Below are positions 18,407 through 36,038 of a stretch of 64,000 nucleotides of DNA, in pieces. Below the pieces are notes generated by a model. It did not search any database. It saw only the letters and a list, made by a program, of their open reading frames with translations, and had not been told where the DNA came from. Position 1 is the first letter of the stretch. Every line of letters begins with the position of its first letter. Location of the stretch: the NCBI RefSeq assembly GCF_000012965.1, contig NC_007575.1, positions 682,001 through 746,000 of the forward strand, given 5' to 3'. Source of the DNA: Sulfurimonas denitrificans DSM 1251. GTDB lineage: Bacteria > Campylobacterota > Campylobacteria > Campylobacterales > Sulfurimonadaceae. A program made the translations under genes and the position numbers.

Positions 18407-18433
18407 TGTCATTTACAAAAACTAATGTTACTC
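18407..18433 (+). repeat. Left terminal inverted repeat
   Basis: The first 27 bases match the reverse complement of 36007-36033 at 24 positions. The outer 12 bases TGTCATTTACAA are identical, and both ends share GTTACTC at repeat positions 21-27. The inner block is the presumed TnsB site. Only 84 bases separate the end from the stop codon of the first cargo gene. Confidence 0.88.
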
Positions 18434-18490
18434 GTAGACAATTAAGCATTTTCGGCTTAATTAAAAAAAAAGAATCATAGAAGCCAAAAT

Positions 18491-20143
18491 TTATTCATAT
18501 TTTGTACCTTTTAAATTAGTTATAATTTTGTTTAAGAACTGTAAAATATTGATGGCATTTTCACACTCTTTTTTATATATCTCAGCATTAGCATCATCAT
18601 GTGATGTTGGATTTAAGATGAAGTTTTTATAAAACTCACCTCGTTTAATTAGAGCTTTAATTGTTTCGTTAGAAATTGTCCCGTCAGCATTTTGAATTTT
18701 TTCAGTAAACTCAATTTCTGTTTTGTTTAATGGGTTAAATGAAGATTTAATACAATTAATTTTAACTTGTTCATTTTTTGTGGAATCATCCAAAATTTTT
18801 TGCACACTCTGATAAAAACGATTTGTTACTTTGTGCGACCGAATATAATGCTTGTCTTCTGATTTTAAAGTATCTATAATGTTTTGTAACTCCTCCACTC
18901 TCCCCAACTCTAAAAGTTGTTCAAATTCTGTAATAATTCTCTCAAACTCTTTTCGTATAAAATTCCCAGCAGAGTATTCATCACCCGTTGAAAGGCTACC
19001 CTTTGCATCTGTTAAATAGCTAATATCTTTATCGTACAAAAAGGCTTGATGATCGTGTACAAAAAGTTTTTGTACTTTCCATTGATTAGCTTCTTCACTA
19101 TCTAAATTGATCATTTTTCTTGCCATATTAAAAAACTGTAAATTATGGGTCAAAATAAGCTTTTGATAATCTTGGAACTCTTCTAAAATATACTTCATAA
19201 TCAATTTTCGATTCGCCATATCAAGGGACGTCAAAAAATCATCTAATACCAAAAGTTTAAATCCATCACGCTTTTCTTCATATTTTTTGGCAAGTGCAAA
19301 ATAGATAGCCACGCTAATTAGTTTTAATTTGGCTTCATTGAAGTGTTGGGATGGCTTTCCATTGCATTCTATATCATCAATCTTAATTTTTATGACAGGT
19401 GGGTTAAATTCCAAAATATCGCTGTTTCCTGAGTGTGCTGGAGTAATTGAAAATGAAATCTTGAAGGACTCATCAAACTTTTCTATAACTTCATTAATTT
19501 CTTTAAGAGGAAAATAATTTTCAAAAACTAATTGTAATAGATCGTTTTCTAATTTGAGCATCTCTTCAAATTTTGCTCTAATCGCTGTGGCATCGTCATT
19601 GCCAATTTCATCAATTATCTTGTTCTTTAACGTATCAAGATTGCCAAATTGAGCAAAACGCTTAAAATGATAATTTTCATTCTTATCAGTAACAGGACTT
19701 TTCATTTGGGGAAAATGCTCAAATAATGTATCATTTAATGCAATATAAAAATTTTCTTTTGTAAGTCTATTCAGGACTTTTTCATTCGCAAAATAGATGC
19801 TTGGATCAATTCCGATAATATTTTGGGGTTGTGTTTTACGAGTTAATACACTAAAATCTGATAGTTCATCTGCATTACAGTTTAAGACCTTGTCCTCATC
19901 TAGGATAATATTAACTTTTAAAGTCTCAGCTTCACATCCACGCGACCTATATGTTTCTTGAACTTTTGAAGCAATATCTTTATCTAACCTTTTTTGATGA
20001 TAAAAATTTGAGTATAAAGCTTCATAAATAGAACTTTTACCTGTGCCATTTTCACCATAGATCAGCAAGCTTTTAGCATTAAAATCAACAGTTAAATCTT
20101 TATGAAATTTAAAATATTTAAGCTCGGCTTTTTGAACTCTCAC
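18491..20143 (-). CDS. ABC/SMC-type AAA ATPase, partner of DUF262 protein
   Basis: 550 residues. The N-terminus is RecF/SMC-like with Walker A GENGTGKS at 30-37; a signature-like helix FNEAKLKLISVAIYFALA and Walker B LLVLDDFLTSLD with D-loop follow near residue 270-310, then an LTHN switch histidine. The C-terminal 170 residues are helical and end in FILNPTSHDD before a last helix. ATPases of this type act in several phage-defence pairs (general knowledge); this exact pairing is not one I can name. Its ATG overlaps the stop of the DUF262 gene, so it is translated behind it. Confidence 0.7.
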   Translation of the reverse strand: MRVQKAELKYFKFHKDLTVDFNAKSLLIYGENGTGKSSIYEALYSNFYHQKRLDKDIASKVQETYRSRGCEAETLKVNIILDEDKVLNCNADELSDFSVLTRKTQPQNIIGIDPSIYFANEKVLNRLTKENFYIALNDTLFEHFPQMKSPVTDKNENYHFKRFAQFGNLDTLKNKIIDEIGNDDATAIRAKFEEMLKLENDLLQLVFENYFPLKEINEVIEKFDESFKISFSITPAHSGNSDILEFNPPVIKIKIDDIECNGKPSQHFNEAKLKLISVAIYFALAKKYEEKRDGFKLLVLDDFLTSLDMANRKLIMKYILEEFQDYQKLILTHNLQFFNMARKMINLDSEEANQWKVQKLFVHDHQAFLYDKDISYLTDAKGSLSTGDEYSAGNFIRKEFERIITEFEQLLELGRVEELQNIIDTLKSEDKHYIRSHKVTNRFYQSVQKILDDSTKNEQVKINCIKSSFNPLNKTEIEFTEKIQNADGTISNETIKALIKRGEFYKNFILNPTSHDDANAEIYKKECENAINILQFLNKIITNLKGTKYE

Positions 20144-21537
20144 TGCTCACCTCTAAAAAACCGTTCATAAAGTTCACGGGTGGCTTTTCCTGGCATGTCA
20201 TACATTCTGCGTTTTAATTTATAAGGATATACTGAAAGTTGATTTGAATCTAAATACTTTTCTAAAAGCTCAAACCCTCTATATAGCCTACCAAAACCAT
20301 AAGGACAAGTATAGTTTTTATCGTAAAAAACTTCCCATTTTTCGTGCATTATTTTAATAACAAGGTCATACATGTCATGTTTGATATATGTTGTAGAGCC
20401 TTTTGCATACGATTGTCTCACAAGTGATTTGGCAAATTTTGTAGTATTGTCACTACCTACATTTAAATTATTTTTGACCAAATAAACTATGACTGTATCT
20501 TTTGGATAAGCGTTGGTGTACAAGTCTATAAGTTGAAACCATTTAGCAAGTTCATTATCAGATTGTTGTTTTGTTTCTTCAAAATATTCAACGGAATCTA
20601 CAATACGATTTAAATCATCTAAAATTTCTCTATATGTCTTTTTTTTAAATGGTGAGTATTCCGTTTTTTCAAAAAAATCTCTCAGGCCTATCTCAGAGCT
20701 CTTTATCCCTTGTTCTCCTCTAGTCATATAAGAATAAATCTTAAAAGCTCTAAGTTTTAGTTTATCATCTATTGCTTCACATCGCTCATCAAAGGATTTC
20801 CAGAGTTCAACAAAAGTATCCTGCTCATTATGCCTGTTAGCCATATAATAGAGGTTTGATTTAAAAATATCACTATCATCAAGTGGCATTCCCCTGTTAT
20901 TCATTGTCTCAAAAATCTTCAGCGCTTTTTCTCTGGCTTTAGCAGTATTTTCAGCTTCTGTGAAAATAGGGAGTAACGAAACATCATAAAGAATAAAATC
21001 TATAAAATCTTTTATATCATTTCCATCTTGATCAATAAAATCTTTAATCTTTTCATAGAAAAAATAGATATTTGTTTTAAATTTATCTTTTTTATTTTGT
21101 GGTTTTTCATATTGATAATTTTCGTCTAAAACTTCATTGAATGATAGGGAATCCCGTTCAATAAAAATATTTGTTATGACTCTTTGTTCTATGATTGCAT
21201 CTGTTCTATCATCTAATATCCAAATGGTATTTTTGAGCTTTCTATTTTTTGCATCAAATGCCCATAAAACTTTTAAAAGCATAATCAATGTGGTTAAACG
21301 TTGCTGCCCATCTATAACCTCAAATTCATCTCTGGCAGATGTTGCAAGTACAAGATTGCCAATAAAATAGCCTTCTGATTTATTTTTTTGAAAAGCGGTT
21401 TTTAAATCCTCAAAAAGTTCTTCACATTCACTTTCAGTCCAAGTATAGGCCCTTTGATATGGAGGAATTATATATTTGGTTTTATCTCCAAAAATTTTTA
21501 ATATATATTTTTGTTCTGCATTGAGTTGTAAAGCCAT
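20140..21537 (-). CDS. DUF262 (GmrSD/ParB-like) domain protein
   Basis: 465 residues. The N-terminal DUF262 domain is clear: IPPYQRAYTW (24-33) and the VIDGQQRL motif (DGQQR at 76-80), the nucleotide-handling site of this ParB/sulfiredoxin-like fold. DUF262 proteins such as GmrS and SspE are nucleases or NTPases against modified phage DNA. The C-terminal half shows no obvious DUF1524 HNH motif, so nuclease activity cannot be claimed. A good AAAGGA site lies before the ATG. It is the first gene of a two-gene unit divergent from tnsA. Confidence 0.75.
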   Translation of the reverse strand: MALQLNAEQKYILKIFGDKTKYIIPPYQRAYTWTESECEELFEDLKTAFQKNKSEGYFIGNLVLATSARDEFEVIDGQQRLTTLIMLLKVLWAFDAKNRKLKNTIWILDDRTDAIIEQRVITNIFIERDSLSFNEVLDENYQYEKPQNKKDKFKTNIYFFYEKIKDFIDQDGNDIKDFIDFILYDVSLLPIFTEAENTAKAREKALKIFETMNNRGMPLDDSDIFKSNLYYMANRHNEQDTFVELWKSFDERCEAIDDKLKLRAFKIYSYMTRGEQGIKSSEIGLRDFFEKTEYSPFKKKTYREILDDLNRIVDSVEYFEETKQQSDNELAKWFQLIDLYTNAYPKDTVIVYLVKNNLNVGSDNTTKFAKSLVRQSYAKGSTTYIKHDMYDLVIKIMHEKWEVFYDKNYTCPYGFGRLYRGFELLEKYLDSNQLSVYPYKLKRRMYDMPGKATRELYERFFRGEQ

Positions 21538-21829
21538 TTTTATCCTTTGAACATAGGTGAAATAAGGTATGTTTTATAATTAATTTTACCTAAACTGATA
21601 TAAAGACGGTATAAAAATTTTTAAACTATTTGAATTTGCCGTATTGATTTGTACCATAATGGTATTTAGCAACTACTTATATTATGCTTCAGGTAAAAAT
21701 TATTTCCAAAAAAATATATAAACTAATGTTACAAAATATATTTATAATAATTAATATATTTATTTTTACAATAATTAATGTTATTAAATTTACATCTAAA
21801 ATTATTTTTAATTTTGATATAATTATTTC
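21538..21829. promoter_or_regulatory. Divergent regulatory gap between DUF262 gene and tnsA
   Basis: 292 very AT-rich bases with no gene. Visible items are a perfect 13-bp palindrome TACCATAATGGTA at 21652-21664, which could be an operator, and a TATAAT box at 21818-21823 only six bases before the tnsA ATG. No regulator gene is encoded in the element that I recognise, so what would bind the palindrome is unknown. Confidence 0.4.
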
Positions 21830-22477
21830 ATGAGTGTCAGAAAAATAAAGAAGAGCTACATCTCTTGTGTCGGATATTTTAAAAGCTATAAGAACAACAA
21901 GCAATTAGCTTTTGAATCTATTTTGGAAAGAGATTTTTTTATGCTGTTAGAATTTAATAAGGATGTTGTTTCGTTTGAAGAACAACCACTGAAAATCAAT
22001 TACAAGCTAAAAGCAAAAAACACAAGATATACCCCTGATGTACTAGTGATATATAAGGATGGCTCTAAAAAAATCTTTGAAGTTAAATACCAAAGTGATA
22101 TAGATTCCGATACAAAACTACAACATAAGATATCTGTTTTAAAAGAAGAAATAGCCCGACAAATGTCACTTCCTTTTGAAACATTCACAGACGCACAAAT
22201 AGACCAAATATATTTCAAAAACTGTGTTTTTCTCTATAAAAATGCTTTTATCTCTGAAAGTCAAACTATGACCAATAAAGTACTAGAGAATATCAATAAG
22301 CTTTCTGAGCCCATTTCTATCAAATCATTTTTAGAACTTTTATCAACCAATCAAACTGAACAATTGCAAACACTTCCCTATCTTTGGCATAAGATATTTA
22401 AGGAACCTTCTCTGATAAACATGCACACAAAGATTACTATGTCTTCTCTTATACTTAAAGGAAAAATTCATGAGTAA
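21830..22477 (+). CDS. tnsA: TnsA-like transposon 5'-end endonuclease
   Basis: 215 residues. TnsA is the restriction-enzyme-like subunit that cuts the 5' strands, allowing clean cut-and-paste. A PD-(D/E)xK core is visible: FESILERDFF (E29/E33), then YTPDVLVIY (D70) and IFEVKY (E84, K86). No Shine-Dalgarno stands before the ATG and a TATAAT box lies six bases upstream, so the mRNA may be leaderless or translation may begin lower down. It overlaps tnsB by eight bases. Shorter than the 273 residues of Tn7 TnsA. Confidence 0.85.
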   Translation: MSVRKIKKSYISCVGYFKSYKNNKQLAFESILERDFFMLLEFNKDVVSFEEQPLKINYKLKAKNTRYTPDVLVIYKDGSKKIFEVKYQSDIDSDTKLQHKISVLKEEIARQMSLPFETFTDAQIDQIYFKNCVFLYKNAFISESQTMTNKVLENINKLSEPISIKSFLELLSTNQTEQLQTLPYLWHKIFKEPSLINMHTKITMSSLILKGKIHE

Positions 22478-24326
22478 ACTAGACCTTTCTATAGGTTCCA
22501 AAGTCTTCTACAATAACGTTGAGCATATCATATTGAAAGCCGTCAATTTTCACACCCTATCCATAGCTCCAACAAATAATCAAAATGAAATCATCAATGT
22601 AAAAATACAAGACTTATCTTCAAAGCCTCAAGAAGAAAAAACGCAACTAGACAGCTATACGGATGAGGAGTGGAGTGAAGCAAAAAAGAAATACAATGCT
22701 ATTAAAGAGCTCGTCTTTAGAAAAAAGTCACGTGACGAAGTTGAAGAGGTAGCTGCTAAGTACAAAGTGACCGCTATGACCGTCTATCGTTGGATAAAGA
22801 CCTATGAAGAATCAGAAAAAATCAGTTCACTAATCTCAAGCAAACATAAACGCGGCAAAAAAGGAAGTCGCATAGAGCCTTTAACAAATAAGGTCATTGA
22901 AGATGTTATAGAAGAACTCTATCTTACCAAACAAAGAATCGGTTTTCCGAAAATCTTCAACACCATTAAAGCAGAATGCAAGAAGCTCAACATAATCCCT
23001 CCACATGAGAACACTGTCCGCAATAGAATAAAAACAATCGATCCAAAATTCGCTCTGAAAAAACGTTTTAGTGCAAAAAAAGCGAATGAAAAATATGGGA
23101 ATTTTGAAGGAGAATATCCAGAGGGAAACTTTCCTTTGGAAGTGTATCAGATAGACCATACTCCACTTGACATCATACTTGTTGACTCTCACTCAAGAAA
23201 ACCTCTAGGAAGACCTTATTTAACACTGGCGATTGATGTATATTCCAGAATGGTTGCAGGATTTTATCTCTCCTTGCAAGCGCCCGGATATTTCAGTGTG
23301 AGTCAGTGTCTCTACAATGCTTTTTTGCCAAAGGATGATTTTCTAAAAAAATACGATATTCAAGGCGAATGGGAAATATACGGGATTCCTTCAAAATATG
23401 CAGTCGATAACGGCAAAGATCTAATAGGGCTTGATATGCAAAGAGTATGCGATGAATTTGGCATGACTATGGTTCGAAGACCCGTTGGAAGACCACAATA
23501 CGGAAGCCACGTAGAGAGGATTTTTTTGACTATAAATAAAGAAATTCATAATTTACCAGGTACTACATTTTCCAATATAGCCGAAAAAGCTGAGTATGAT
23601 TCCATCAAAAACGCAACTTTTACCCTTGATGAGATAACAAAGTGGCTCACGGAGTTTATCGTCAATGTTTATCATAACCGTGTACATCATGGAATAGGCA
23701 TGACACCGAGACAAAAATACAGTTTAGGCATCTTTGGCGATGATGAGAATCCGGGTACAGGCTTGCCGCCAATTGTAGAAGATAGGGAGTCGATTAAAAT
23801 CGCTCTCTTACCTGCATTTTACCGAACCGTTCAAAAAGACGGCATCACACTTGATGGTATTACGTACTATTCGGATGTTCTGAGAACTTGGATAAACAGG
23901 GATGATGAACAAGGCAATAAGCTAAAGTTTAAAGTCAAAAGAGACCCTCTGAGTATCCAAAAGCTTTACTTCTTTGACCCGGAACTCAAAGAGTATTTTG
24001 AGTTAAGCTACAGAAAGCTTCATGCTCCAGATATGACCGTATGGGATCTCTATACAGCAAAGAGATATCTAAAAGAGAATAGTATCAAAGATACAAATGA
24101 AGATGACCTCTTTGATGCTTACGAACGGCTTACACACATAGAAAAACAGGCAAAAGAGAAAACAGCCAAACATAAAATAAGAAAAAGCAAAGCACCTAAA
24201 ATGAGCGACATCAAGTCAAAAAGCAAAACAGAGAGTCAAGTTGTAAAAGAGAAAGAGACCAAACAAGCTGATGATGTTTTTCATGACCTCTTTGACAACA
24301 TAGAAACTTTTCACATTAAAGAGTAG
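22470..24326 (+). CDS. tnsB: TnsB-like DDE transposase
   Basis: 618 residues. An N-terminal helix-turn-helix region (KYKVTAMTVYRWIKTYEE and following) binds the ends; the rve/DDE core has D229 (YQIDHTPLD), D313 (YAVDNGKDLIG) and E349 (YGSHVERIF), a D-x35-E spacing. The C-terminus is lysine-rich and would contact TnsC. TnsB makes the 3' breaks and joins them to target. Overlap with tnsA and three bases to tnsC indicate one operon. No frameshift or missing residue is seen. Confidence 0.93.
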   Translation: MSKLDLSIGSKVFYNNVEHIILKAVNFHTLSIAPTNNQNEIINVKIQDLSSKPQEEKTQLDSYTDEEWSEAKKKYNAIKELVFRKKSRDEVEEVAAKYKVTAMTVYRWIKTYEESEKISSLISSKHKRGKKGSRIEPLTNKVIEDVIEELYLTKQRIGFPKIFNTIKAECKKLNIIPPHENTVRNRIKTIDPKFALKKRFSAKKANEKYGNFEGEYPEGNFPLEVYQIDHTPLDIILVDSHSRKPLGRPYLTLAIDVYSRMVAGFYLSLQAPGYFSVSQCLYNAFLPKDDFLKKYDIQGEWEIYGIPSKYAVDNGKDLIGLDMQRVCDEFGMTMVRRPVGRPQYGSHVERIFLTINKEIHNLPGTTFSNIAEKAEYDSIKNATFTLDEITKWLTEFIVNVYHNRVHHGIGMTPRQKYSLGIFGDDENPGTGLPPIVEDRESIKIALLPAFYRTVQKDGITLDGITYYSDVLRTWINRDDEQGNKLKFKVKRDPLSIQKLYFFDPELKEYFELSYRKLHAPDMTVWDLYTAKRYLKENSIKDTNEDDLFDAYERLTHIEKQAKEKTAKHKIRKSKAPKMSDIKSKSKTESQVVKEKETKQADDVFHDLFDNIETFHIKE

Positions 24327-24329
24327 CGT

Positions 24330-25271
24330 ATGAATATTGAACTAACAGAAGAAACAAAAAAAATACTTGACAGCTCTGATGAAGAGAGAATCAAATATAT
24401 CAACGAAGAGTATTGGATTGACTATCCTATCGCTCAAAATATCTTAGAAAAGATGGAAGATATTTACAATTTCGGCTATGGCAAGACCAGATATATCAGC
24501 ATCTTGCTTGTGGGTGGAAGCAACAACGGAAAGACATCTCTGCTCAAACAGTTTTTGGAGAAGCATCCGCCCTACGATTACAATATCGATGGCGAACAGC
24601 CTGATTGGATCACAGATGACTTCTTTGATAAATACACCGGTATTGGCAGACCTGTTTTATATGTCATCTCACCAACAGAACCAAGCGAGAGCAGACTCTA
24701 CAGTATTATCTTGGAGCAATTGAATATACCCTATAAAACACGTGACTCCTTGGATGTAAAAGCTAAACTCGTAGAGTATTACCTCAAAGCTCTTAATGTC
24801 AGAGTCCTTATCATCGATGAGATTCATAACATTCTTAACGGCTCCCCTGCAAGACAAAAGCAGATTATGAGTGCTATAAGAGATTTAAGCAGCAAACTGA
24901 CAATGCCCGTCATTTTAGCAGGAGTCAAAGAAGCTTTACGTGCCGTAAACACAGAAGATCAGATTAGCAGCAGATACAGACCGGAATATCTCACAAAATG
25001 GAAGATGGATAAAGATTACATCAGTCTCTTAGCCACCACAATAAGCAAACTGCCACTAAAAAAACAATCTACAATTATCAACAAGGATGATGCACAAGAG
25101 ATTCTTGAACTATGTAACGGATATATTGGGGAGATTGTGAACTTGATTAAAGCAGCTGCCGTATATGCCATAAAAACAGGAAGCGAGAGAGTTACCATCA
25201 ACGAGATAAAAGAGTGTGGATTTAATACTCTGCAAAATATTCATAAGACTATGAATCTCAAAGATATATGA
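24330..25271 (+). CDS. tnsC: TnsC/TniB-like AAA+ target-selection ATPase
   Basis: 313 residues, much shorter than Tn7 TnsC (555) and close to TniB and CAST-type TnsC. Walker A GGSNNGKTS is at 62-70 and Walker B VLIIDEIHNIL near residue 160, with an SRYRPEYL arginine segment later. TnsC links the target-choice protein to the transposase. It overlaps tniQ by four bases (ATGA). Confidence 0.9.
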   Translation: MNIELTEETKKILDSSDEERIKYINEEYWIDYPIAQNILEKMEDIYNFGYGKTRYISILLVGGSNNGKTSLLKQFLEKHPPYDYNIDGEQPDWITDDFFDKYTGIGRPVLYVISPTEPSESRLYSIILEQLNIPYKTRDSLDVKAKLVEYYLKALNVRVLIIDEIHNILNGSPARQKQIMSAIRDLSSKLTMPVILAGVKEALRAVNTEDQISSRYRPEYLTKWKMDKDYISLLATTISKLPLKKQSTIINKDDAQEILELCNGYIGEIVNLIKAAAVYAIKTGSERVTINEIKECGFNTLQNIHKTMNLKDI

Positions 25272-26404
25272 TCAAAAAGATAAACTTTCCGGAACTAAAA
25301 AATGAAAACTTTGTAATCATCCCTCTACCGCTTGAAGATGAACTGCTTTCCTCCTGGATAGTTCGCACGGCATATGCCCACAAGACGCATCCACATACTT
25401 TTACAAATCAATATCTAAACTACAGACAGCACTCTTTTTTTCTTGCTCAAAGCGATCTTACTTTAGATCCAGAGATGATTAAAATCATCGAAGAAAAAAG
25501 TCATCACAAAATAGATATTCGTTCCCTAATACTAACAACCTACTCAGGATATATTCAAGAAAATATCTATGAGAATAATCCAGCTACATTTTTTACCCAT
25601 CAAAAATATTGTCCTATCTGTCTACGAGAAGACAAAGTGCCCTACTTTAGAAAAAAATGGCGGGTTGTTTTTTACAATATTTGTCATAAACACCAATGCC
25701 GCTTATACGAGCATTGTCCTTCTTGCAAAACAAAACTCGATACCTCGCAAATGTATGAAAACAGGCTACCTTACACACACTGCCACCATTGCGGATTTGA
25801 ACTGAAAAAAGGAAGAAAACTACCGATTCATAAAAAGCATATTTCAAGTCTTGAGTATCAAAACAAGATTTTTAAAACTATAGAAAACGGCTATATCCAG
25901 CTTGGCAAAACTCCTGTCTACTCATTTTTATTTTTTGAAGTTTTTTCAAAACTATCCAAGCTTATACTCCTTAATTACAAGCATAAATTTATAGATAAAC
26001 ATCCATTATTTTTACTCATAAAAGATGCGAAACACCAAAATGTGAATCATCCTATATTTAAAAAAGTAGATGCAAAAGCACAATCAGCACTTTTTGGGTT
26101 GATTATGTATATATTTGAAGATTTTCCACACAATTTAAAAGCCTATATCCAAGCAAACAGGCTTACTTATTACGATTTAACGACAAAGGTACATAATATA
26201 CCGTTTTGGTATGAGAGCATTGTTAATGACATTTCACCGCGATATCTGCCGCATAGCATGACAGTCACAAAAGAAGAAGTAGAACATGCAGAGCAATATT
26301 TAAAGTCAATACGCAAAGAAATAAACAAAGCCAATCTTACTAAATTACTAGGGTGTAATTTTGGTAGTAATGATAATAATTTAAAAAACTTCATTCAACA
26401 ATAA
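25268..26404 (+). CDS. tniQ: TniQ/TnsD-like target-selection protein
   Basis: 378 residues. The N-terminal TniQ part has PLEDELLSSWIVRTA and paired zinc fingers: YCPICLRED, CHKHQCRLYEHCPSCKTKL and HCHHCGFELKKG. The C-terminal part (to 378) is helical and long enough to hold a site-recognition region, though shorter than the 508 residues of Tn7 TnsD. No CRISPR or cas gene is nearby, so it is unlikely to be RNA-guided. What site it recognises is not visible here, because the insertion is within flhF. Confidence 0.88.
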   Translation: MIKKINFPELKNENFVIIPLPLEDELLSSWIVRTAYAHKTHPHTFTNQYLNYRQHSFFLAQSDLTLDPEMIKIIEEKSHHKIDIRSLILTTYSGYIQENIYENNPATFFTHQKYCPICLREDKVPYFRKKWRVVFYNICHKHQCRLYEHCPSCKTKLDTSQMYENRLPYTHCHHCGFELKKGRKLPIHKKHISSLEYQNKIFKTIENGYIQLGKTPVYSFLFFEVFSKLSKLILLNYKHKFIDKHPLFLLIKDAKHQNVNHPIFKKVDAKAQSALFGLIMYIFEDFPHNLKAYIQANRLTYYDLTTKVHNIPFWYESIVNDISPRYLPHSMTVTKEEVEHAEQYLKSIRKEINKANLTKLLGCNFGSNDNNLKNFIQQ

Positions 26405-26414
26405 TGCCACTACT

Positions 26415-26771
26415 TCAAGTGTAAATATAATATTCCATAGCCCAAAAATGACTCCCCATATCTTTTCTTTCAAGCAAAGATTTAAAGTCTTTCCTTATTA
26501 ATCTACTAGACACAGTTTTTAGATTATTGACAAATGAAGATAGCTTTATATGAGGCGGGGCACTAAAATGAATTATTACTTTTGACTGTTCCTCTATTGT
26601 GATGTCTACAAGCTTACATTTATGCTTATCGATATTTTGCAATATGATATTTTTTAGATTTTCTTCTAGTGTATCATATATAATTTTTTTGCCCTCAAAT
26701 ATACTTACAACTAAATAATAGTTTAGGTTATAAAATGAGTGTCTATTCCTTTTAAATCCGCTATTTAACAA
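26415..26771 (-). pseudogene. IS200/IS605 TnpA-like remnant without HUH motif
   Basis: 118 residues. The order NLNYYLVV, a central strand, SAPPHIKLSSFVNNLKTVSSRLIRK and HFWAMEYYIYT follows Y1 transposases closely. But the HUH motif (family DHVHLLIS) is replaced by QSKVIIHFS, and the frame stops before the catalytic-tyrosine helix. In the same frame after the TGA one can read SSGIIVE and another stop, resembling the lost tail. It still has AAGGA eight bases before its ATG. Most likely an inactive remnant; use as a DNA-binding protein cannot be excluded. Confidence 0.65.
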
Positions 26772-26783
26772 TATAATTTTTCC

Positions 26784-26812
26784 TTGACAACTAATTATTT
26801 TTTTTGTATAAT
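26784..26812 (+). promoter_or_regulatory. Perfect sigma70 consensus promoter for the hsdM operon
   Basis: TTGACA at 26784-26789, a 17-base spacer, and TATAAT at 26807-26812. Both boxes are exact consensus at optimum spacing. It reads toward hsdM, whose ATG is at 26945 after AAAGGAG. Resident Campylobacterota promoters generally lack a -35 TTGACA box, so this looks imported. Confidence 0.8.
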
Positions 26813-26828
26813 ATTATATATTAGTGTG

Positions 26829-26859
26829 ATTTGTCAAGCGTTTTAAAAATATGACAAAT
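26829..26859. promoter_or_regulatory. Inverted repeat downstream of the promoter, possible operator
   Basis: ATTTGTCA (26829-26836) and TGACAAAT (26852-26859) are perfect 8-base arms with a 15-base spacer, starting 17 bases after the -10 box. The position suits a repressor or controller site in the 5' leader, or an RNA hairpin. The half-site is partly echoed in the TTGACAA of the -35 box. Confidence 0.45.
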
Positions 26860-26944
26860 TGCAATATATTTTTAAATTTTAAAATATTTTCTATACTCTT
26901 CTTTTATATAAAATATTTTTGGATAGAATACCAAAGGAGTTAAG

Positions 26945-28537
26945 ATGACGATGATACCAAACAGAGCTAAAATTCTTGAAAAAAGTCTATGCGATTACTA
27001 CTGGGCTTATTCTGATATCCTTAGAGATATAGGGATTAATGAATCTACTTATGACCAAAGAATCATGGCTTTTATGGCTTTAAAACTTCTAATTGACAAT
27101 GACAAGCTTATGTTCACTTTTGAATATAATAATAATTTTGGCTTGGATCATGCAATATTTGCTAAATATGACTTGGGTGAAACAAAAAAAACTTTTCTAA
27201 ATATTATAAAAAATATAGAAAAGCTTGGGCAAAATCTAAATTATTTCACACAAGAGAGCAAATATAATCCAGATACCTCTAAAAATATTTTGACCTATTT
27301 AAATCATTTTAAAACATTTGAACTTGAAAGATACATTCAAGAGCTACCTAATAATTATCTTGAAAATGTACTTGACATTTACACATATAAGGCAAATTTT
27401 AGAGACTATCCAAAAGAACAGTACAAAGACTTGTATGAAGCTACTATTTCAAGAATGAAAAAACTTAGTGGTGATTTAACAGGGCAACATTTCACTCAAA
27501 AATCTATTGTACATCTTATGTGTGAGGTTTCTAAATTTGAAGCTGAGGGGTATGATAAGCTTGCTATTTATGATCCAACTTGTGGAACTGCCAGTATGCT
27601 CATGGAATCTGCACACTACTTTTATAACAAAAATAAAATAGAAAATATTGAGGTTTATGGACAAGAGTTACACGGGCAAACTTGGCTTTTAGCAAAAATA
27701 TTTCTTGAAATTAGTTCTCTTGATGGAAAATCACAAGGTATTAAAAATACGATAGCTTATGGAAACACTTTAACTAATCCTGCTTTTGCAAATGGAATCA
27801 ATGGAGATACAAGCTTCGACTTTATCATAGCAAATCCACCATTTGGCGTGGATTGGAAGCATAACTATGATGAAATAGTACAAAATATGAGTAGCAAAAA
27901 AAGTGACTTTTTTGTAGTTAAAGATGAAAAAAATAAAGTAGTAACTCCTAAAAAATCTGATGGTCAATTTTTGTTTATGCAACACATAATAAATCTGATG
28001 AAATCAGAAAAAAGAAGGAATAAACACGCTCATGCGGCTATAATTAGTTCATCTACGCTTATAAGTACTGGAAATGCTACAAGTAGTGAATCAAAGATAA
28101 GAAAAGAGATATTTAATACAGGTTTTGTAAGTGCTGTGCTCGAACAGCCAAGTGCAATGTTTACCAATACGGATATAAGTTCGCATATATGGTTTTTGGA
28201 TAGTGACCCAAGCGAAAAAATCACAATAGTAAAAGCAGACACAAAAGAGGAAGAACTTTTTTCACCACATCTACAAGCCAAAGATAAGATGAAGAATTCT
28301 TATAGTCAAAAAAATATTCGTAGACTTGCCACCCTTATCAACAGTAAAAAAGAGTTTAAATATAAATCAAAATTTATAGACTCAAAAGATAGATATGAGA
28401 TAAATATATCAAATGAGATAGGCTTCAAAGACGAGGTGGAAGATTTAAACTTCGATGAGCTTACAAATGAGCTTAATATGCTCATGAAAGAGATGTGTGA
28501 AGAGTTTCAGAACAGCTCACTCTTTGGGATAAAATAA
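26945..28537 (+). CDS. hsdM: Type I DNA adenine methyltransferase subunit (HsdM-like)
   Basis: 530 residues. An N-terminal helical HsdM domain leads to GDLTGQHFTQKSIVHLM, the SAM motif DPTCGTASM (210-218) and the catalytic NPPF (297-300), the pattern of N6-adenine methylases. It would methylate adenines at sites chosen by the specificity subunit. AAAGGAG precedes the ATG; hsdS starts directly after the stop. There is no hsdR in the element; the next genes are McrB/McrC-like. Everything expected for an active enzyme is present. Confidence 0.92.
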   Translation: MTMIPNRAKILEKSLCDYYWAYSDILRDIGINESTYDQRIMAFMALKLLIDNDKLMFTFEYNNNFGLDHAIFAKYDLGETKKTFLNIIKNIEKLGQNLNYFTQESKYNPDTSKNILTYLNHFKTFELERYIQELPNNYLENVLDIYTYKANFRDYPKEQYKDLYEATISRMKKLSGDLTGQHFTQKSIVHLMCEVSKFEAEGYDKLAIYDPTCGTASMLMESAHYFYNKNKIENIEVYGQELHGQTWLLAKIFLEISSLDGKSQGIKNTIAYGNTLTNPAFANGINGDTSFDFIIANPPFGVDWKHNYDEIVQNMSSKKSDFFVVKDEKNKVVTPKKSDGQFLFMQHIINLMKSEKRRNKHAHAAIISSSTLISTGNATSSESKIRKEIFNTGFVSAVLEQPSAMFTNTDISSHIWFLDSDPSEKITIVKADTKEEELFSPHLQAKDKMKNSYSQKNIRRLATLINSKKEFKYKSKFIDSKDRYEINISNEIGFKDEVEDLNFDELTNELNMLMKEMCEEFQNSSLFGIK

Positions 28538-29967
28538 ATGATAGGAACTTTAGATAGTCAAGTTATTGAAAAGTTTAAAGAGTTTCAGGAAAAAACTGGG
28601 AAATATGCTGATTTAGATATTAATAAAGTACTTTTTGATAAAAAAACAATAGATGATATTGTTGATGACTTTATAAAAGGTTCAACTCCTAAATATTCGC
28701 ATAATCCCACGGATACAATGGTTATAAAATCTGGACAAGCTCGAGGGAATTATAATGAGTTTAACTTTACGAAAACAGCTTATTTGGATTTATCAAAAGT
28801 CAAGAACCCTAAATATTTACAAAAAGGTGATATCTTAATTAATACAACTGGTGTAGGTACTTGCGGGAGAGTAACACACTTTTCGATCTTGATGGAAATT
28901 ACGTATCTGATAGTCATATAACTACTCTTAGATATGATAAAAATATAATTAATCAATTTTACTTGTTATATTTTTTCGTAAAATTTGGATTTAAAAAATT
29001 GGAGTCAATGGCAGAAGGTTCTGGTGGTCAAATAGAATTGAGTATGGATAATGTTAAGCCTTTGTCTATTTCTATTCCTAAAGATTATAATGAATATAAA
29101 TCTATTGATATACAAAATATAATAGTTGAATTTTTAGAATTTTGGAAAATAAATTATACAGATATCTTTAGAAAAACTGTTGACCATCAAAAACCAATTA
29201 TAGAAAAAATCAAAAAAGCTTTAGTTCCTGCTACATTTAAATATGACAAAATATTAACAAAAAGTTTTAATAGTTTTGCAGATGACAATGGCTATGATCT
29301 TACTCTAGAAAGTATAGTGTTTAAAGAAGTACCTTTTTTTGATTTAGTTAAGGTAACAAATGGTTCTGAATTTCCAGCTGGTTATGTTAAAAGAGGAACA
29401 GGCGAGATTCCATTGATAAGTGCTGGTGTGAAAAAAGACATAATGGGAACTATAAAAAGTTTATTGGGAAATAATAAATCTGAGCCTTTAAAACATTATG
29501 TATTTAATGACACTAAACAAAAATGGAACGAAGTAAAGCATTATATTGGAAAAAATTATTATACGCTAACAGCAGATGGAGAAGGTGGAAATATTACAAA
29601 AAGAGCCAAAGAAAATTATCCAAAAGGGTTTTACACTACTAATATTTGTAAAACTTTAGAATTTAATGAGGCAGATATACAGGATGATTATTTCTATATG
29701 TCTTATAAATTCACAAAATACAAATATAATTTTGATTTTGGTAATAAAGCAAATAACGATAATTTATCTTTCATAAAAATTACCTTACCTGAGAATCATA
29801 ATCTCTATTCATCTTTAGATTTACAAAAAATATTAATAGAATTTTGGAATAGTATTTTACAAAGTATAGATAATCAATTTGAAAAATTTGAAAATATTAC
29901 TATACTAACTGATAAAATAGATGAAGCTTTTTTATATAGAACTTTTAGCAAAATAGAATGGAGATAA
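28538..29967 (+). pseudogene. hsdS: Type I specificity subunit (HsdS-like), split by a 2-bp frameshift
   Basis: Two target-recognition domains lie in two frames. The first frame (28538-28921) reads to GTCGRVTHFS and then garbles; the second, open from 28861, continues LFDLDGNYVSDSHITTLRYD. Taking two bases from the ACACAC at 28874-28879 restores GRVTLFDLDGNYVSD and gives about 475 residues, normal for HsdS. As it stands a 127-residue half and a second half (up to 368 residues) would be made. Cause could be slippage in a short dinucleotide run, mutation or a sequencing error. HsdS chooses the DNA site for HsdM. Confidence 0.8.
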
Positions 29968-32114
29968 TGATGACAAAAGAAGGAATATATAGCCAAATAG
30001 AGAAATTCAATATTAATATAGCAAATTCAAAAGAAACTAAAAACAATAAATATTACTATATTAATTCAGATGAAGCATTACTAAAATCACAATTTATCAA
30101 TGAAATACAAAAAGATATAGTTATTAAAAATAAATTAGATTCTATTGAAACAGTGATGGATTTATGTTTTGGTAGTGGGAATTTAGCTTCACATATATTA
30201 TTAGAAAATCAAATACAATATAAAAATATTATTTTAAATGATTACTTTTTAGATGAATGTAATCAAGAATTAGAAAACTTATTAGAAAACTGTGAATTGA
30301 AACAATGTGATTTTTTTAATTCAGATTGTTTTGAAGAAAATAGTGTTGATTTGCTTATATTTAATCCTACCCATGGTGGTAAACCAACAATAAAAGATTT
30401 TGTTAATAAAGAAAATAAAGATTTTGATGCTTTAAATAAAACATTATCTAAAATATTAAAGCCTAATTCACTTGTTATTTTTCGAGGTTTGAAAGAAGAT
30501 TTTCAAGAATTGATATTTTCTAAATTTAAATATAAAAAAATCTATTTAGAGGGGAGTCAGTCTTTATATGTTTGTTACGATATAGAGGCTGAAAAGAAAG
30601 ATTGCTACGAATATACAAATAATCAATTTATAGAAAATGAAAATTGTGAAATAGAAAAAAGTTCTGATGAAGAAGATTTAGATATTGGAGAACTTATGCA
30701 AGAATTAGAAGAAAATAAGATTGAAAATAGTTTCAATGGTGTTCTTCAATCTGAATCATCAATTGTAACTAATGCACAAAATGATAATGAAGAAAAATTT
30801 ACGGAGTGGTGGTTAAGTAGTAGTTATCACTCTGTTGATGGAAAACCTTATGCAGAAAGTACTAAGAAAGGATATTTACGTGCTTTAAAACAATTAAAGA
30901 CGGAGTTGATTACTTTTGGATTTGATAATATTGATATATTTAAACTTCAAGATTTAAAAGAAGTAAATGAACTATTAGATAGATTAGAATCAGGCGATTT
31001 ATATGATTATAATAAACGACATGATAACTCTGATACAAGTAATGGATTAAAGCAATATATAAAATTTTTAAAAGGTGAAAGTAATATAAATACCTTTAAT
31101 AATAGTAAAGAAGAAGAAGACAATATGAAAGATACAGAAATTATAAAAATAAAATTTTCAGATGAAGGAAAAGGAAACTTAGATTTTTCATATAAAAATA
31201 TTCTTTTTAAAGGTGTTCCAGGTACTGGGAAAAGTAGGGCTATAAATGAGATTATAAAAAATCATTTAGAATTAGCAAAAAATGATAAAAATGCACTGCG
31301 TATAAATATACATTCTGCATCTTCAAATAGTGATCTTATGCAAGGAATAGGAATATCAACAAGTGATAAAGGAAATATCAAATATAGTGAAAAGCAGGGG
31401 CTTATATTAGATATTATAAAAAGAGCTACATTTCATCCAAATCAACCTTTTGTATTGATTCTTGAAGAGATACAAGAAAATAGCCTCAATGAGCTTATTG
31501 GGGATTTAATCTACTTAATTGAAGATGATAAAAGAGCAAAATTAACCGCTGATAATAAAGAATATGATAACTATGAAGACCTTGTGGATAAATTGGTAGA
31601 TGAAGATGATACTTTAGACTATGTTGAGATACCATATCTTGTAAATGATAGTACGAAGTATAAAAAAATGATAATGCCATATAATTTATATATATTTTGT
31701 ACATCTAATTATAGAGATGATAAAAAAGTGATAGAAGATAATCTCTTAAGAAGGTTTGAGGTTATTGAAATTTATCCAAAGGAAACTATCGTAAATGATT
31801 ATGCAAAAGATTTTTTTGATAAATTGAATAAGTCTATTAATGCTGTTATGGAAAAGCAAGGCGAAATTCATCCTGATAGATTTTTAATAGGTCATGCTAT
31901 ATGGAAAGATGTTGAAAATAAAGAGTTATTTTATAAAGCATTTTCTAAATTGATAACAGAATTTAAAGATATAAGAGAAATAGAATTTGATGTTTTTAAA
32001 TCTATCATAGAAGGTATATCTTTACCTGAAGATGTTAGTATTGAGATTGAAAATAGCTATTATAAAATGATAAAAGATATTCAATCAAAAATTCACTATG
32101 ACTTCCTTAGTTAA
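29958..32114 (+). CDS. McrB-like AAA+ protein fused to a methyltransferase-like domain
   Basis: 718 residues as drawn; GGAG at 29960-29963 favours starting at 29967 or 29970. Domain 1 (about 1-210) is a Rossmann methyltransferase fold with motif I DLCFGSGN (68-75), but motif IV is NPTH (136-139), not NPPY/F, so it may bind DNA or SAM without catalysis. Domain 2 (about 282-375) resembles the helical domain seen ahead of some McrB proteins. Domain 3 is McrB-type AAA+ with GVPGTGKS (419-426), FVLILEEIQENSL as Walker B and CTSNYRDD near the sensor. It overlaps hsdS and the mcrC-like gene. Confidence 0.75.
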   Translation: MEIMMTKEGIYSQIEKFNINIANSKETKNNKYYYINSDEALLKSQFINEIQKDIVIKNKLDSIETVMDLCFGSGNLASHILLENQIQYKNIILNDYFLDECNQELENLLENCELKQCDFFNSDCFEENSVDLLIFNPTHGGKPTIKDFVNKENKDFDALNKTLSKILKPNSLVIFRGLKEDFQELIFSKFKYKKIYLEGSQSLYVCYDIEAEKKDCYEYTNNQFIENENCEIEKSSDEEDLDIGELMQELEENKIENSFNGVLQSESSIVTNAQNDNEEKFTEWWLSSSYHSVDGKPYAESTKKGYLRALKQLKTELITFGFDNIDIFKLQDLKEVNELLDRLESGDLYDYNKRHDNSDTSNGLKQYIKFLKGESNINTFNNSKEEEDNMKDTEIIKIKFSDEGKGNLDFSYKNILFKGVPGTGKSRAINEIIKNHLELAKNDKNALRINIHSASSNSDLMQGIGISTSDKGNIKYSEKQGLILDIIKRATFHPNQPFVLILEEIQENSLNELIGDLIYLIEDDKRAKLTADNKEYDNYEDLVDKLVDEDDTLDYVEIPYLVNDSTKYKKMIMPYNLYIFCTSNYRDDKKVIEDNLLRRFEVIEIYPKETIVNDYAKDFFDKLNKSINAVMEKQGEIHPDRFLIGHAIWKDVENKELFYKAFSKLITEFKDIREIEFDVFKSIIEGISLPEDVSIEIENSYYKMIKDIQSKIHYDFLS

Positions 32115-34308
32115 ACTAATATTCCTTAAAGAGAATGAAAAAGATATTTTTTATTCTCTTCAAAATCAAGGGATAAATTCTTCTAAATTTGAACATCATT
32201 TTATTGATTTATTTAATAAAATGTATAACAATGAAGTGGGTTATTACATCTTCAAGCAAGATGAACAAATTTATAAAATTATCATATTACCTAAAACGAT
32301 TGATGAAAAAAGTCCAACTGCACAAAAAGATTTTGTGAATTATTTACTTCATTATCATAGAGTAAATAATAAATACAGATTTGACACAACAAAACAGATA
32401 CCAAATTCACTTTTAAGTCTTGCATTTGAAGAAAACAATCAAGATGAAAACAACTCTCATAACCCAATTGAAGAGTTTGAATATTATAAGTACAAATCAA
32501 TACTTGAATCAATAGAGTACTTTTTTAAAAAGCATAAAAATTTTAGAAAAATTCATATAGATTATAAATCACAAGATATTAAATATAAACTTAATCTCTC
32601 AAAAAATATAAAAGAGTTAGACAAAACAAAAATACATCAAACACAATCGTTAGATGTACTGTATTCTCAAATAGCAACTATAACTTATGGTGCTTTAAAA
32701 TTGTTTGCTAAAAGAAGAATAGATATTATCAAAGATGAAGAATATAAAAAGCAACTCATCCAAGAAGCAAGAGAACTGATAAGCTTTATCGCTAAAAAAT
32801 ATCCTATAGATAAGAATTACAAATTTAGTTTATCAAAATTGAATAATTCTAAAACAACAAAAGTGTATAGTAACAAGAGTGATACCAAGTTGTTGTTAGT
32901 GGATATAAAATCATTGTTTGGTTTTGAGCAGATGTATCAAGATAATGAAGTGTATGTTAGCAATCGATATGATTTAACTACAACATCATTTTTTATAAAT
33001 CCTTCAACATTCTATGAATGGTATATTTATGATATTTTTGAAAGTACTGTAGGTCATCAATATTCTGTACTTTTTGATAAGCACAAAGAAGCAAGTAAAA
33101 AAACCCAGACACAATATGATTTAACCTCAAAATATGATGGTGATACAAAGAGAAATTCAAAACCTGACTATATTTTGATTGATGAAGAAAAGAAAATAAA
33201 AGTTGTACTTGATGCTAAATGGAAAAACATTCCTAAGTTTAATGAAATTGGATCTGAAGATTTTTTAAAGTTAAAGCTTGATACAGAGTTATTAAATAAT
33301 AACGGCTATTCAACATTGGCTTATTTGATTTATCCATATTATCCACATGAGAATGACCATATTAAAATTACAAAAGAAAGTAACCAATATTTTAACTTTG
33401 GTGTTTTGAAAATTGATATGAATTTCGATAAAGATAAAAATAGTATTAATTTTAAATATGATTTTGAAAGAATTGAAGAACAGATTAGAAAAGAAGAGAA
33501 TGACGCCATAATTCAATCAAGCTCTGAAAGATTTACAAGTGAAATAGATGTTCGCAGAAGTGAGTTAATTACTAAACTCTTAAACAGTGAAGATCTTGAA
33601 AACAAAGAAGAAGTTTTTGCTGAACTTGATAATACACTTTTAGAATCAGCAACAAAATTAAGTGAAGAGATAGGAGAAAAAATATCTCCAGAAGTTCAAG
33701 AAGTTCTTGACCAATATAGTGATATTTTAGAGGAAGATAGTATAAAGTTTTTAAAATCTTCTTCTTCAATATACAACTATTACGTAGCTAGAAACTTTGA
33801 ACATTTTGATTATTCTATGCCCGCAAGTGGTTTATGGAAACTAGTTGAACTTGAGCTTAATACGTCTTTTTCATGGTTTCTAAGAATCAAAAGTAATGTT
33901 TGTAATAATACTTCTCCTTGGATAAATATATCAAACTCAAGACGAAGTATCACTCAAGATTTAGAGAATAGAAAGCAAGTGAAGTTAAATCAATTCGAAC
34001 ACAATAATATAAGTAAACTTCAAGGCATAATGCTAGGTGGAATTATTTTGCTTCTTAAAGATGCAAAAACAATTGAGGAGTTTGATGAAATAGAAAATTT
34101 GAATAGAGTATTTTTCACATCAGAATTAACTGGATTTCTCTCAGAAATTATTAACTTAAGAAATGAACATGCACATATAAAAGCAATGTCATTAGAAAAA
34201 TTTGATGAACTTTATAAAAAATTATTTAACAATAATGATTTAACAAAAACAAACATTTACAAACTATTAAAATTTAAAAAATCAACCAAATCTTTTATTA
34301 CAAAATAA
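32098..34308 (+). CDS. McrC-like PD-DxK nuclease with C-terminal HEPN-like motif
   Basis: 736 residues. The centre matches DUF2357/McrC proteins: FINPSTFYEWYIYDIFE, then a PD-DxK nuclease core KPDYILID...VVLDAKW (D357, D372, K374). Beyond residue 480 comes a coiled, acidic linker and an extra helical domain of about 160 residues ending in INLRNEHAHIKAM, where R688-x4-H693 fits the R-x4-6-H signature of HEPN RNases. The start overlaps the McrB-like gene by 17 bases, so both proteins are made together, as McrB and McrC are. The nuclease call is firm; the HEPN call is by one motif plus helical context. Confidence 0.7.
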   Translation: MTSLVKLIFLKENEKDIFYSLQNQGINSSKFEHHFIDLFNKMYNNEVGYYIFKQDEQIYKIIILPKTIDEKSPTAQKDFVNYLLHYHRVNNKYRFDTTKQIPNSLLSLAFEENNQDENNSHNPIEEFEYYKYKSILESIEYFFKKHKNFRKIHIDYKSQDIKYKLNLSKNIKELDKTKIHQTQSLDVLYSQIATITYGALKLFAKRRIDIIKDEEYKKQLIQEARELISFIAKKYPIDKNYKFSLSKLNNSKTTKVYSNKSDTKLLLVDIKSLFGFEQMYQDNEVYVSNRYDLTTTSFFINPSTFYEWYIYDIFESTVGHQYSVLFDKHKEASKKTQTQYDLTSKYDGDTKRNSKPDYILIDEEKKIKVVLDAKWKNIPKFNEIGSEDFLKLKLDTELLNNNGYSTLAYLIYPYYPHENDHIKITKESNQYFNFGVLKIDMNFDKDKNSINFKYDFERIEEQIRKEENDAIIQSSSERFTSEIDVRRSELITKLLNSEDLENKEEVFAELDNTLLESATKLSEEIGEKISPEVQEVLDQYSDILEEDSIKFLKSSSSIYNYYVARNFEHFDYSMPASGLWKLVELELNTSFSWFLRIKSNVCNNTSPWINISNSRRSITQDLENRKQVKLNQFEHNNISKLQGIMLGGIILLLKDAKTIEEFDEIENLNRVFFTSELTGFLSEIINLRNEHAHIKAMSLEKFDELYKKLFNNNDLTKTNIYKLLKFKKSTKSFITK

Positions 34309-35974
34309 TTTTTTTCAAAACACTCTCACACCATCTCTCAACACTGTCATCGTCAACATCGCCTTTTTTATGCTCTTTTTGCTCAAATGAAAGAGAGTAG
34401 TTCTTTTCAACATACCTAGCAAGGTCTTTATACGGCAAATCTTCTTCAATGTAGTGTTCTATTATCTCTTGCATATCATGTTCAGTATACGGCTCCGTAT
34501 CTTCACTTGTAAAAAATATCCAGGTTGATGGTCCCCAACTGCTGTCTTGCTCTATCTCAACAATGTATACAGCTTTTTGGTCATAAGCAAGCTCTCCAAA
34601 CAGAAATCTTCTTTGCTTGTCCTCATCACCATGCAGTAGTGACCTTGACTTAGTTGACTTTCGTTTTTTGTTTTGAATCTTTTTTATTTTTAACGGTCCA
34701 ACGAGTTCTGAACCCTCTACAAATGCAAAAGTCAGTAAAGCCTCATAAAACTGATAAAAGTTTTCTAAATTAAATATCTTCTTCTCTGTATTGTTTTCTT
34801 CTGAGTCGTTTGAGATTGCAACTTCACCAAGATTTTTATCTCCATCAGCTGTCGGAGTTTCAAAACTGTTCCCCACCGTTTTTGGAATATTATCAACAAG
34901 CAGTTCTGATTCATTCTCTAAATAGATAGTTGTTTCATGCATAGGTACTTTGTTTTTATAGTATTCATCTTCGTTTGTGCGTATGATATATGTTAGATAC
35001 TCACTAGATGGTGTGCCCGTATAAATCTTATTGCTTCTTTGAGGCTTTTTTCTTTTGAACTTTTTCTTAGGCGGCTTGGGAATATTATATTGCTCAGGAC
35101 CAATATCTCTAGGGTCTGCTTTGGCACTAAACTGTTTATAGTAAAGCTCTTCAAATCCTAGCGCTGAGTTATCCGAATGTATATTTAGGACCAAGTACTT
35201 AGGATTACCTCTTTCATCGTCTCCTAGGTATATGTATGAAGCGTATATCTCGAAAGGATTTTTAACAGGGAATTGCGCCTTGATTTGTTGATACTCAAAG
35301 CTCGCACTTAAAGATTTTTGATTTGAAATATATTCAAGTCTTGCTCTTGCAAAAGAATTACCTATAAAACGACATAAAAAAGGCAGGTCTTTTTTTCCTG
35401 CTTTCTTTTTAATATGCAGCTTTATGACAGTTTCTCCTTTGGCATTTTTTTCATTATGGAAACTACCTTCATAATAAAGCTCTCCAAGCGTCTCACTCAT
35501 AATCGCATGTTTCATAGATGAAGATAAGAAGTAGAATCTATTTGCTATCGTATAGCACGGTATTATAAGTGTACATTCATCTTGTACTTCTACATGGGCA
35601 TATTGTCTCAACAGGTACTTAGCTACATCTTCATAATCTATTATGTTTTTAGCTTCTTCTTCACTAAGGACCGTTGATAAACGCACAAGATTTACATCAA
35701 TATTTTCATTGACTGTAAACTCACCCTTGAGCAAAGTTTTATTCTGACCAACATGCTCACCGTCAGTATATATATGACCGACTTTATACTTATATCTCAT
35801 CATTTCAGGGGCTATATGTTCTGAACGAAATCTGCCTGTTTTTATATTACGAAAAATTGCTTTGTAGTAGTTGGGGTGTTCTTTGATATTGATATCTGTA
35901 ACTGTTACAAATTCAAACGGTTGGTTAGGAAATTTTGAGAAGAAATTGAGGATTGCTGAATTGTTTTGTGACAA
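34298..35974 (-). CDS. tnsE: Probable TnsE, DNA-structure-guided target selector
   Basis: 558 residues (Tn7 TnsE has 538). TTG start with GGAGG eight bases before it, inside the transposon right end. Similarity to Tn7 TnsE as I recall it: IPCYTIANRFYFLSSSMKHA against IPQLELARSLFLINSYF, a variable middle, a strand block YIVEIEQDSSWG against FVLLEVDASDG, and the end VERWCESVLKKI against MEGWAERVVRE. TnsE directs Tn7 to replicating or broken DNA without a fixed sequence, which suits the insertion inside flhF. It converges on the McrC-like gene, overlapping 11 bases at the 3' ends. Alignment by eye only. Confidence 0.6.
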   Translation of the reverse strand: MSQNNSAILNFFSKFPNQPFEFVTVTDINIKEHPNYYKAIFRNIKTGRFRSEHIAPEMMRYKYKVGHIYTDGEHVGQNKTLLKGEFTVNENIDVNLVRLSTVLSEEEAKNIIDYEDVAKYLLRQYAHVEVQDECTLIIPCYTIANRFYFLSSSMKHAIMSETLGELYYEGSFHNEKNAKGETVIKLHIKKKAGKKDLPFLCRFIGNSFARARLEYISNQKSLSASFEYQQIKAQFPVKNPFEIYASYIYLGDDERGNPKYLVLNIHSDNSALGFEELYYKQFSAKADPRDIGPEQYNIPKPPKKKFKRKKPQRSNKIYTGTPSSEYLTYIIRTNEDEYYKNKVPMHETTIYLENESELLVDNIPKTVGNSFETPTADGDKNLGEVAISNDSEENNTEKKIFNLENFYQFYEALLTFAFVEGSELVGPLKIKKIQNKKRKSTKSRSLLHGDEDKQRRFLFGELAYDQKAVYIVEIEQDSSWGPSTWIFFTSEDTEPYTEHDMQEIIEHYIEEDLPYKDLARYVEKNYSLSFEQKEHKKGDVDDDSVERWCESVLKKIIL

Positions 35975-35982
35975 ATCTCAAT

Positions 35983-36033
35983 CCTCCAGTAACATTTATT
36001 ATTGTAGAGTAACTTTTGTTCTTGTAAATGACA
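35983..36033 (-). repeat. Right terminal repeat with inner TnsB-like repeat
   Basis: Read inward from 36033 the end begins TGTCATTTACAA and matches the left end at 24 of 27 bases. A second copy of the inner core, ATGTTACT, lies at 35988-35995 on the minus strand and overlaps the region holding the tnsE ribosome site. Multiple TnsB sites at the right end are typical of Tn7-like elements; here I can see only two. Confidence 0.8.
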
Positions 36034-36038
36034 GTATG
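36034..36038. repeat. Target site duplication GTATG, right copy
   Basis: Exact match to 18402-18406, directly outside the right end. Its ATG (36036-36038) is flhF codon 115 and could serve as a start codon for the downstream fragment. Confidence 0.93.

Follow-up and report, generated by a model that had tools for sequence, protein, structure and literature searches.

An HsdMS operon with McrBC-like genes and no hsdR on a Tn7-like element of Sulfurimonas denitrificans: a candidate restriction system

Genes of the operon

The 64,000-nucleotide stretch of Sulfurimonas denitrificans DSM 1251 analysed here (NC_007575.1, positions 682,001 to 746,000; hereinafter the window) contains a candidate restriction operon. 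Its genes, all on one strand and with abutting or overlapping ends, encode an HsdM-like adenine methyltransferase, the specificity subunit HsdS, a fusion (29958–32114) of a methyltransferase-like domain, denoted X, with a McrB-like domain, and a McrC-like protein. The original prediction, made from the sequence alone, described a four-gene operon; hsdM, X-McrB and the McrC-like gene are present where predicted, whereas hsdS consists of two frames and not of one gene. The claim that HsdR is absent holds for the operon, as the genome's only HSDR_N match is situated about 272 kb downstream in an operon of its own. The location of the operon on a Tn7-like element, present twice in the genome, was not part of that prediction.

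The hsdM gene (26945–28537, forward strand, as are all genes of the operon) yields a strong match to N6_Mtase (2.8e-45) and to the PADLOC type I methyltransferase model (1e-50), and carries the NPPF motif at 27833. Its product has no Pfam HsdM_N match; HsdM of genome G376 has one. The hsdS gene (28538–29967) is frameshifted within the first recognition domain (frames 28538–28921 and 28861–29967). Both frames match PADLOC type I specificity models and correspond to successive parts of the intact 463-residue HsdS of G390, with identity of 76.9% over residues 1–117 and 48.9% over residues 113–463.

X is the N-terminal domain of the fusion (29958–30602). It aligns over the full length in five rows, where FGSGNL and NP..GG are invariant. 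N6 methylases carry NPP[YF]; X carries NPTHGG, as in the window, or NPQIGG. The matches to methyltransferases are weak (PDB 7wm6, 0.0016; Methyltransf_25, 0.0031), and in G380 X matches PADLOC mad2 (4.9e-8). We infer that X is a dead methyltransferase fold that has lost the catalytic NPP[YF] motif. Stand-alone homologues are found at loci L036, L037 and L069. Between X and the AAA+ domain of the window fusion there is an extra segment of about 110–120 residues (30762–31124), absent from G390 and L001; it has no significant Pfam match, and its likeness to an integrase N-terminal domain is by eye only.

The McrB-like AAA+ domain (31125–32114) matches AAA_5 (1.6e-7) and E. coli McrB (6hz4, 1.1e-9), and features Walker A GVPGTGKS and NYRD, a motif of the NxxD type. 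The McrC-like protein (32098–34308) has no real match in Pfam or NCBIfam. However, its PD...DAK nuclease motif (33163–33225) is conserved, P356-D357 and D372-A-K374 being invariant in all four aligned homologues. In Foldseek searches with AlphaFold models, McrB was the top match for the AAA+ domain (6ut3; mean predicted local distance difference test score, pLDDT, 49), and the top four matches for the McrC-like protein (mean pLDDT 43) were chains of E. coli McrBC structures, which we take to be McrC. The models are too poor for arguments about the fold, and the Foldseek matches serve as support for the McrB and McrC assignments only.

The McrC-like protein ends with a helical tail (33505–34305), 72% identical between the window and G390. 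The original prediction took this part to be HEPN-like and to hit RNA as a second stage, which the present results do not support. The motif on which this relies, RNEHAH (34159–34176), is indeed kept in both tailed homologues, but no HEPN match was found in Pfam or the PDB, the one PDB match being a ribosomal protein at E=1.2, and the pLDDT of the tail is below 50. Moreover, the tail is missing in L001, G380, G414 and G210, as well as in G040, and thus is present in two of the six genomes with the operon. The tail is not a part of the system core.

Related loci, co-occurrence and HsdR

The original prediction proposed the same gene order in other genomes as its check. The order hsdM-hsdS-X-McrB-McrC is found at seven loci in six genomes, with X fused to McrB in G000 (the genome of the window), G390 (locus L034) and L001 (a Sulfurovaceae metagenome-assembled genome), and separate in G380 (L036), G414 (L069) and G210 (L037). 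The set in G390 and L001 comprises hsdM, a single intact hsdS, X-McrB and McrC; in G380, G210 and G414, hsdM and hsdS are accompanied by separate genes for X, the AAA protein and the nuclease. All five relatives have a confirmed HsdS with two recognition domains. The G210 locus is decayed or poorly assembled, since several of its frames are short, and G380 and G414 represent one orthologous site in one genus rather than independent insertions.

Among 397 Campylobacterota genomes, six pass the threshold of 1e-6 with the X profile, and four of these are strong (E 5e-78 or better). The other two, G161 and G181 (about 1e-7), were rejected, as these are methylases with the NPPY motif. Searched by family, X is present in three of 104 genomes (G390, G380 and, newly found, G414) and in one of 180 (G000 only). 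The profile of the HsdM clade gives six genomes at 1e-40, four of them at 840–1000 bits and the next two at 159 and 143. The four strong HsdM genomes are the four strong X genomes. The chance of two random sets of four coinciding among 397 is 1 in 1.0e9, a figure that is indicative only: X-bearing loci were the source of the HsdM profile, relatedness makes the genomes non-independent, and scoring covered only the best three candidates in each genome. G376, the first of the lower-scoring genomes, has an ordinary operon of HsdM_N-type HsdM, S and HSDR_N. Given the conservation and the co-occurrence, chance adjacency of HsdMS and McrBC was rejected.

The McrB fusion retrieves 36 of the 397 genomes at 1e-5, mostly by generic AAA matches, with strong matches in G000, G390 and G040; the neighbourhoods read were those of the window's genome, G390, G040, G380 and G210, and generic McrB homologues may have neighbours of other kinds. 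A scan of genome contigs yields two loci: L001 and, by a weak AAA match, L002. The McrC profile finds four of the 397 genomes, the fourth being G134 at 4.9e-8, and does not detect the nucleases of G380 and G210. The AAA proteins of the G380 type and of the window align by hhalign with probability 96 (E 3.4e-9). In the PDB, the McrC profile and the G380-type AAA matched nothing, and the PHROGs search gave nothing significant. The X and McrC profiles had no matches in plasmids, and the X, AAA and HsdM profiles none in viral contigs; the McrB fusion had matches in plasmids and phages only at less than 60% identity, covering at most a part of the protein.

The linkage of HsdMS to McrB/McrC without HsdR, as proposed in the original prediction, is supported by its conservation in other genomes. 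McrBC of the same lineage is present in G040 without HsdMS. There, the AAA domain is 58% and McrC 37% identical to those of the window, and the pair is situated beside Vsr and two 5-methylcytosine (5mC) methylases. This is the one mcrBC pair of the lineage found without HsdMS, and it does not stand alone. At the same time, McrBC of two lineages accompanies the same HsdMS-X core. The two lineages on one core, together with the window's lineage in G040, argue for HsdMS-X and McrBC being separable modules. Locus L035 (5248–11759) is a LlaJI-type operon consisting of Vsr, two 5mC methylases, a 243-residue protein of unknown family, McrB and McrC.

No hsdR was seen in the operon stretches read (window, G390, L001, G380, G210, G414), L001 ending upstream at a contig end; homologous loci with hsdR nearby had been named as the finding that would speak for mere adjacency. 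In G390, whose operon is intact and whose assembly is one contig, 99% complete, the HSDR_N search gave no match at all, although HsdR lacking that domain would be missed by it. The G380 genome has three HSDR_N matches, and G210, G414 and the L001 genome two each; in G380, G210 and G414 these genes are on other contigs than the operon. We considered HsdR acting in trans and ruled against it: G390 has none by HSDR_N, and the HsdR of the window's genome sits with its own hsdM and hsdS, that hsdM being 28.6% identical to the operon HsdM over 255 residues. An ordinary complete type I system of the same genome is found at L050 (312–10750), with an extra hsdS-like fragment at the start. In the four plasmid relatives of HsdM inspected out of 2538 records, a helicase or type I endonuclease gene directly follows S, that is, it occupies the slot taken here by X/McrB. 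In G376, the R-type gene is also downstream of S, with one gene between them.

Recognition domains and mode of action

The HsdS recognition domains are exchanged beside conserved effectors. In G380 and G414, HsdM is 96%, AAA 98%, the nuclease 97% and X 89% identical, while the second target recognition domain (TRD2) of HsdS has identity of 10–40% per 20-residue block between well-conserved flanks (TRD1 of G414 is masked). Similarly, X and AAA of the window and G390 are 91% and 86% identical, yet the TRD2 domains are unrelated, the one in the window resembling TRD1 of G380 (54.6% identity). Such HsdS swaps should leave the host exposed to an effector with a fixed site of its own; therefore HsdS is favoured as the shared reader. 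These swaps suggest that HsdS sets the site of both methylation and restriction, and site reading by the McrBC part alone is less likely than the original prediction implied.

In the window copy, the frameshift in hsdS probably precludes normal activity, and the same split is present in the second copy of the element. An effector acting alone on unmethylated host sites should be lethal once HsdS fails. The persistence of two identical copies with split hsdS fits HsdS as the shared reader. It also fits a dead effector, an assembly error or residual activity of half-HsdS; in engineered type I enzymes, dimers of half-HsdS are functional, according to the available part of PMC6158711.

We consider it probable, judging from the genes and their conservation, that the operon is a type I-like restriction-modification system, with X and an exchangeable McrBC module in place of HsdR and with HsdS setting the specificity of both marking and cutting. 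HsdM and HsdS would methylate adenines at the site chosen by the two recognition domains. X, a predicted methyltransferase fold without NPP[YF], would form a complex with HsdMS as an adaptor, docking the McrB hexamer on it. At an unmethylated site, the nucleotide-driven McrB motor would be engaged, leading to cutting by the PD-(D/E)xK site of McrC. By analogy with McrB, the nucleotide would be GTP. Whether this amounts to a novel class of restriction system intermediate between types I and IV, with a GTP-driven McrBC motor-nuclease slaved to HsdMS via a dead methyltransferase-fold adaptor and at least two McrBC lineages on one HsdMS-X core, we regard as evenly balanced.

The known systems share parts of this arrangement. 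As in type I HsdRMS, there is HsdM with NPPF, HsdS with two swappable recognition domains, and an effector gene after hsdS; however, HsdR is replaced by McrB/McrC and X, and HsdM lacks the Pfam HsdM_N match. E. coli type IV McrBC has the same AAA domain with Walker A and NxxD and a PD-(D/E)xK partner; here, the operon includes a methylase, and a modified-DNA reader domain was not found in it. The LlaJI type combines a McrB-like and McrC-like restriction pair with a cognate methylase, but with two 5mC methylases (as in our control, G040, with two DNA_methylase genes) in place of adenine-type HsdM and HsdS, and with a B3 reader in place of X. MADS is similar in that HsdM matches mad2 (1.5e-14) and HsdS of G210 and G414 match mad5 in PADLOC; at that, the mad8 match of McrB is weak (0.0078), McrC matches nothing, and the remaining mad genes are not in the operon. 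PcaI, too, is a mobile methylase with a McrBC-like endonuclease, the latter acting on unmethylated DNA, although its methylase is Dcm-like and cytosine-specific and it has neither HsdS nor X, as far as the available text of PMC8989522 goes. CoCoNuT systems are set apart by the motif, their McrB having NxD, along with long coiled coils (available text of PMC11090510), as opposed to NxxD (NYRD) here.

An alternative, which we find unlikely, is that the operon works like LlaJI, the site being read by the N-terminal part of the McrB fusion (X with the extra segment) on its own, and HsdMS methylating that site only to protect the host. The LlaJI McrB homologue R1 is indeed the specificity subunit (available part of PMC1459862), acting via a B3 domain (available part of PMC12707154), and the AAA domain is 58% identical to McrB of G040, whose operon includes Vsr and two 5mC methylases. 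Further, among the effector parts X has diverged most between G380 and G414, being less conserved than HsdM, AAA and the nuclease, so that a role of X in recognition is conceivable. On the other hand, TRD2 has changed between the window and G390 with X still 91% identical, and X resembles a methyltransferase fold rather than a B3 domain. Still less probable is that the operon comprises two systems acting independently, a type IV McrBC directed against modified DNA and, next to it, an orphan type I methylase. The CoCoNuT census reports, in its available text, that McrBC is frequently associated with type I systems and DNA methyltransferases, type I and McrBC loci often being neighbours (PMC11090510), as they also are in E. 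coli K-12; but the genes here overlap, their order is the same in six genomes, X goes with this HsdM clade in the same four of 397 genomes, and G390 has no HSDR_N. Finally, HsdMS-X could monitor DNA for methylation loss or infection, with McrBC and a HEPN-like RNase killing the cell. Such a suicide sensor would give a role to the RNEHAH tail conserved in the window and G390, but four of the six genomes, and G040, do without the tail, and neither Pfam nor the PDB shows a HEPN match; we regard this as very improbable.

Several observations weigh against the preferred reading, HsdS as the shared reader of a type I-like system with McrBC as its effector. In the window's genome, hsdS is broken in both copies, the genomes are few and from one phylum, the structure models are of low quality (pLDDT 49 and 43), and the G380-type nuclease aligns with McrC by hhalign with a probability of only 12.8, albeit with PD and DAK in register. 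X also differs from the other parts, as seen above for G380 and G414. Between the window and L001, its ratio of nonsynonymous to synonymous divergence (dN/dS) is high, 0.65/0.89 (about 0.7), at 34% identity in an end-trimmed alignment; given this divergence, X may be under loose constraint or may itself act as a reader. In favour of the preferred reading, dN/dS between the window and G390 is about 0.15 for hsdM, 0.20 for X and 0.12 for AAA, 0.25 for the N-terminal and 0.16 for the C-terminal part of McrC, although in some comparisons synonymous sites are near saturation. The dS of X in this pair is unusually low, 0.21, suggesting recent exchange.

In the open-licence PMC papers searched, we found no description of HsdMS-McrBC without HsdR, and the 2024 McrBC census, in its available text, leaves methyltransferase-associated McrBC for a forthcoming paper (PMC11090510); there is a chance that such a system has already been described elsewhere. 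If the proposed mechanism is true, natural part-swapping bridges the split between type I, with its ATP-driven HsdR, and GTP-driven McrBC, usually of type IV, one reader-writer core being served by exchangeable motors. X would then be a simple handle on how a methylation reader switches on an AAA+ motor, and HsdS swaps would yield McrBC-type enzymes with freely chosen sites. The specificity gene is broken in the window copy, and intact relatives exist.

The Tn7-like carrier element

The operon is carried by an element of 17,627 bp (18407–36033) with the 12-bp terminal repeat TGTCATTTACAA, flanked by target-site duplications GTATG, read directly at 18402–18406 and 36034–36038. On the forward strand, it encodes tnsA-like (21830–22477; Tn7_TnsA-like_N 6.1e-16, TnsA_C 3e-11), tnsB/tniA-like transposase (22470–24326; Mu-transpos_C 1.6e-8), tnsC/tniB-like ATPase (24330–25271; TniB 4.4e-53) and tniQ (25268–26404; TniQ 2.9e-24) genes. 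With TnsA, TnsB, TnsC, TniQ, TGT...ACA ends and a 5-bp duplication, it is Tn7-like. The element splits flhF (FlhF N-terminal part 0.00024, C-terminal part 1.5e-51), and this copy should disrupt the flagellar gene.

The second copy (L033, 502–18131, at about 1.66–1.68 Mb) is identical, with a one-column difference only at the insertion-site border. Here the insertion lies at the 3' end of a gene confirmed as argJ, and TTTAT is duplicated at its stop codon. Thus a Tn7-like element is seen to have moved such a system within one genome. A possible tnsE (34298–35974, reverse strand) has a TnsE_C match (E=0.0029, 17.9 bits) under the 26.7-bit cut-off and no PDB match; TnsE could explain insertion away from the usual attachment site. 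Defence genes are known cargo of Tn7-like elements, and the available part of PMC8649781, where this is described, mentions none of McrB, HsdM, argJ and flhF.

Just left of the second copy, 44 bp (L033, 456–499) are 88.6% identical to the right end of the element, as if a related element had once used the argJ site. Between tniQ and hsdM there is a small reverse-strand open reading frame of 118 residues (26415–26771). The element also carries a second candidate defence pair on the reverse strand (18491–21537), an RecF/SMC-like ATPase (SMC_N 4.1e-15, PADLOC mad3 3e-12) and a GmrSD_N/DUF262 protein (5.7e-39, PADLOC HEC-06).

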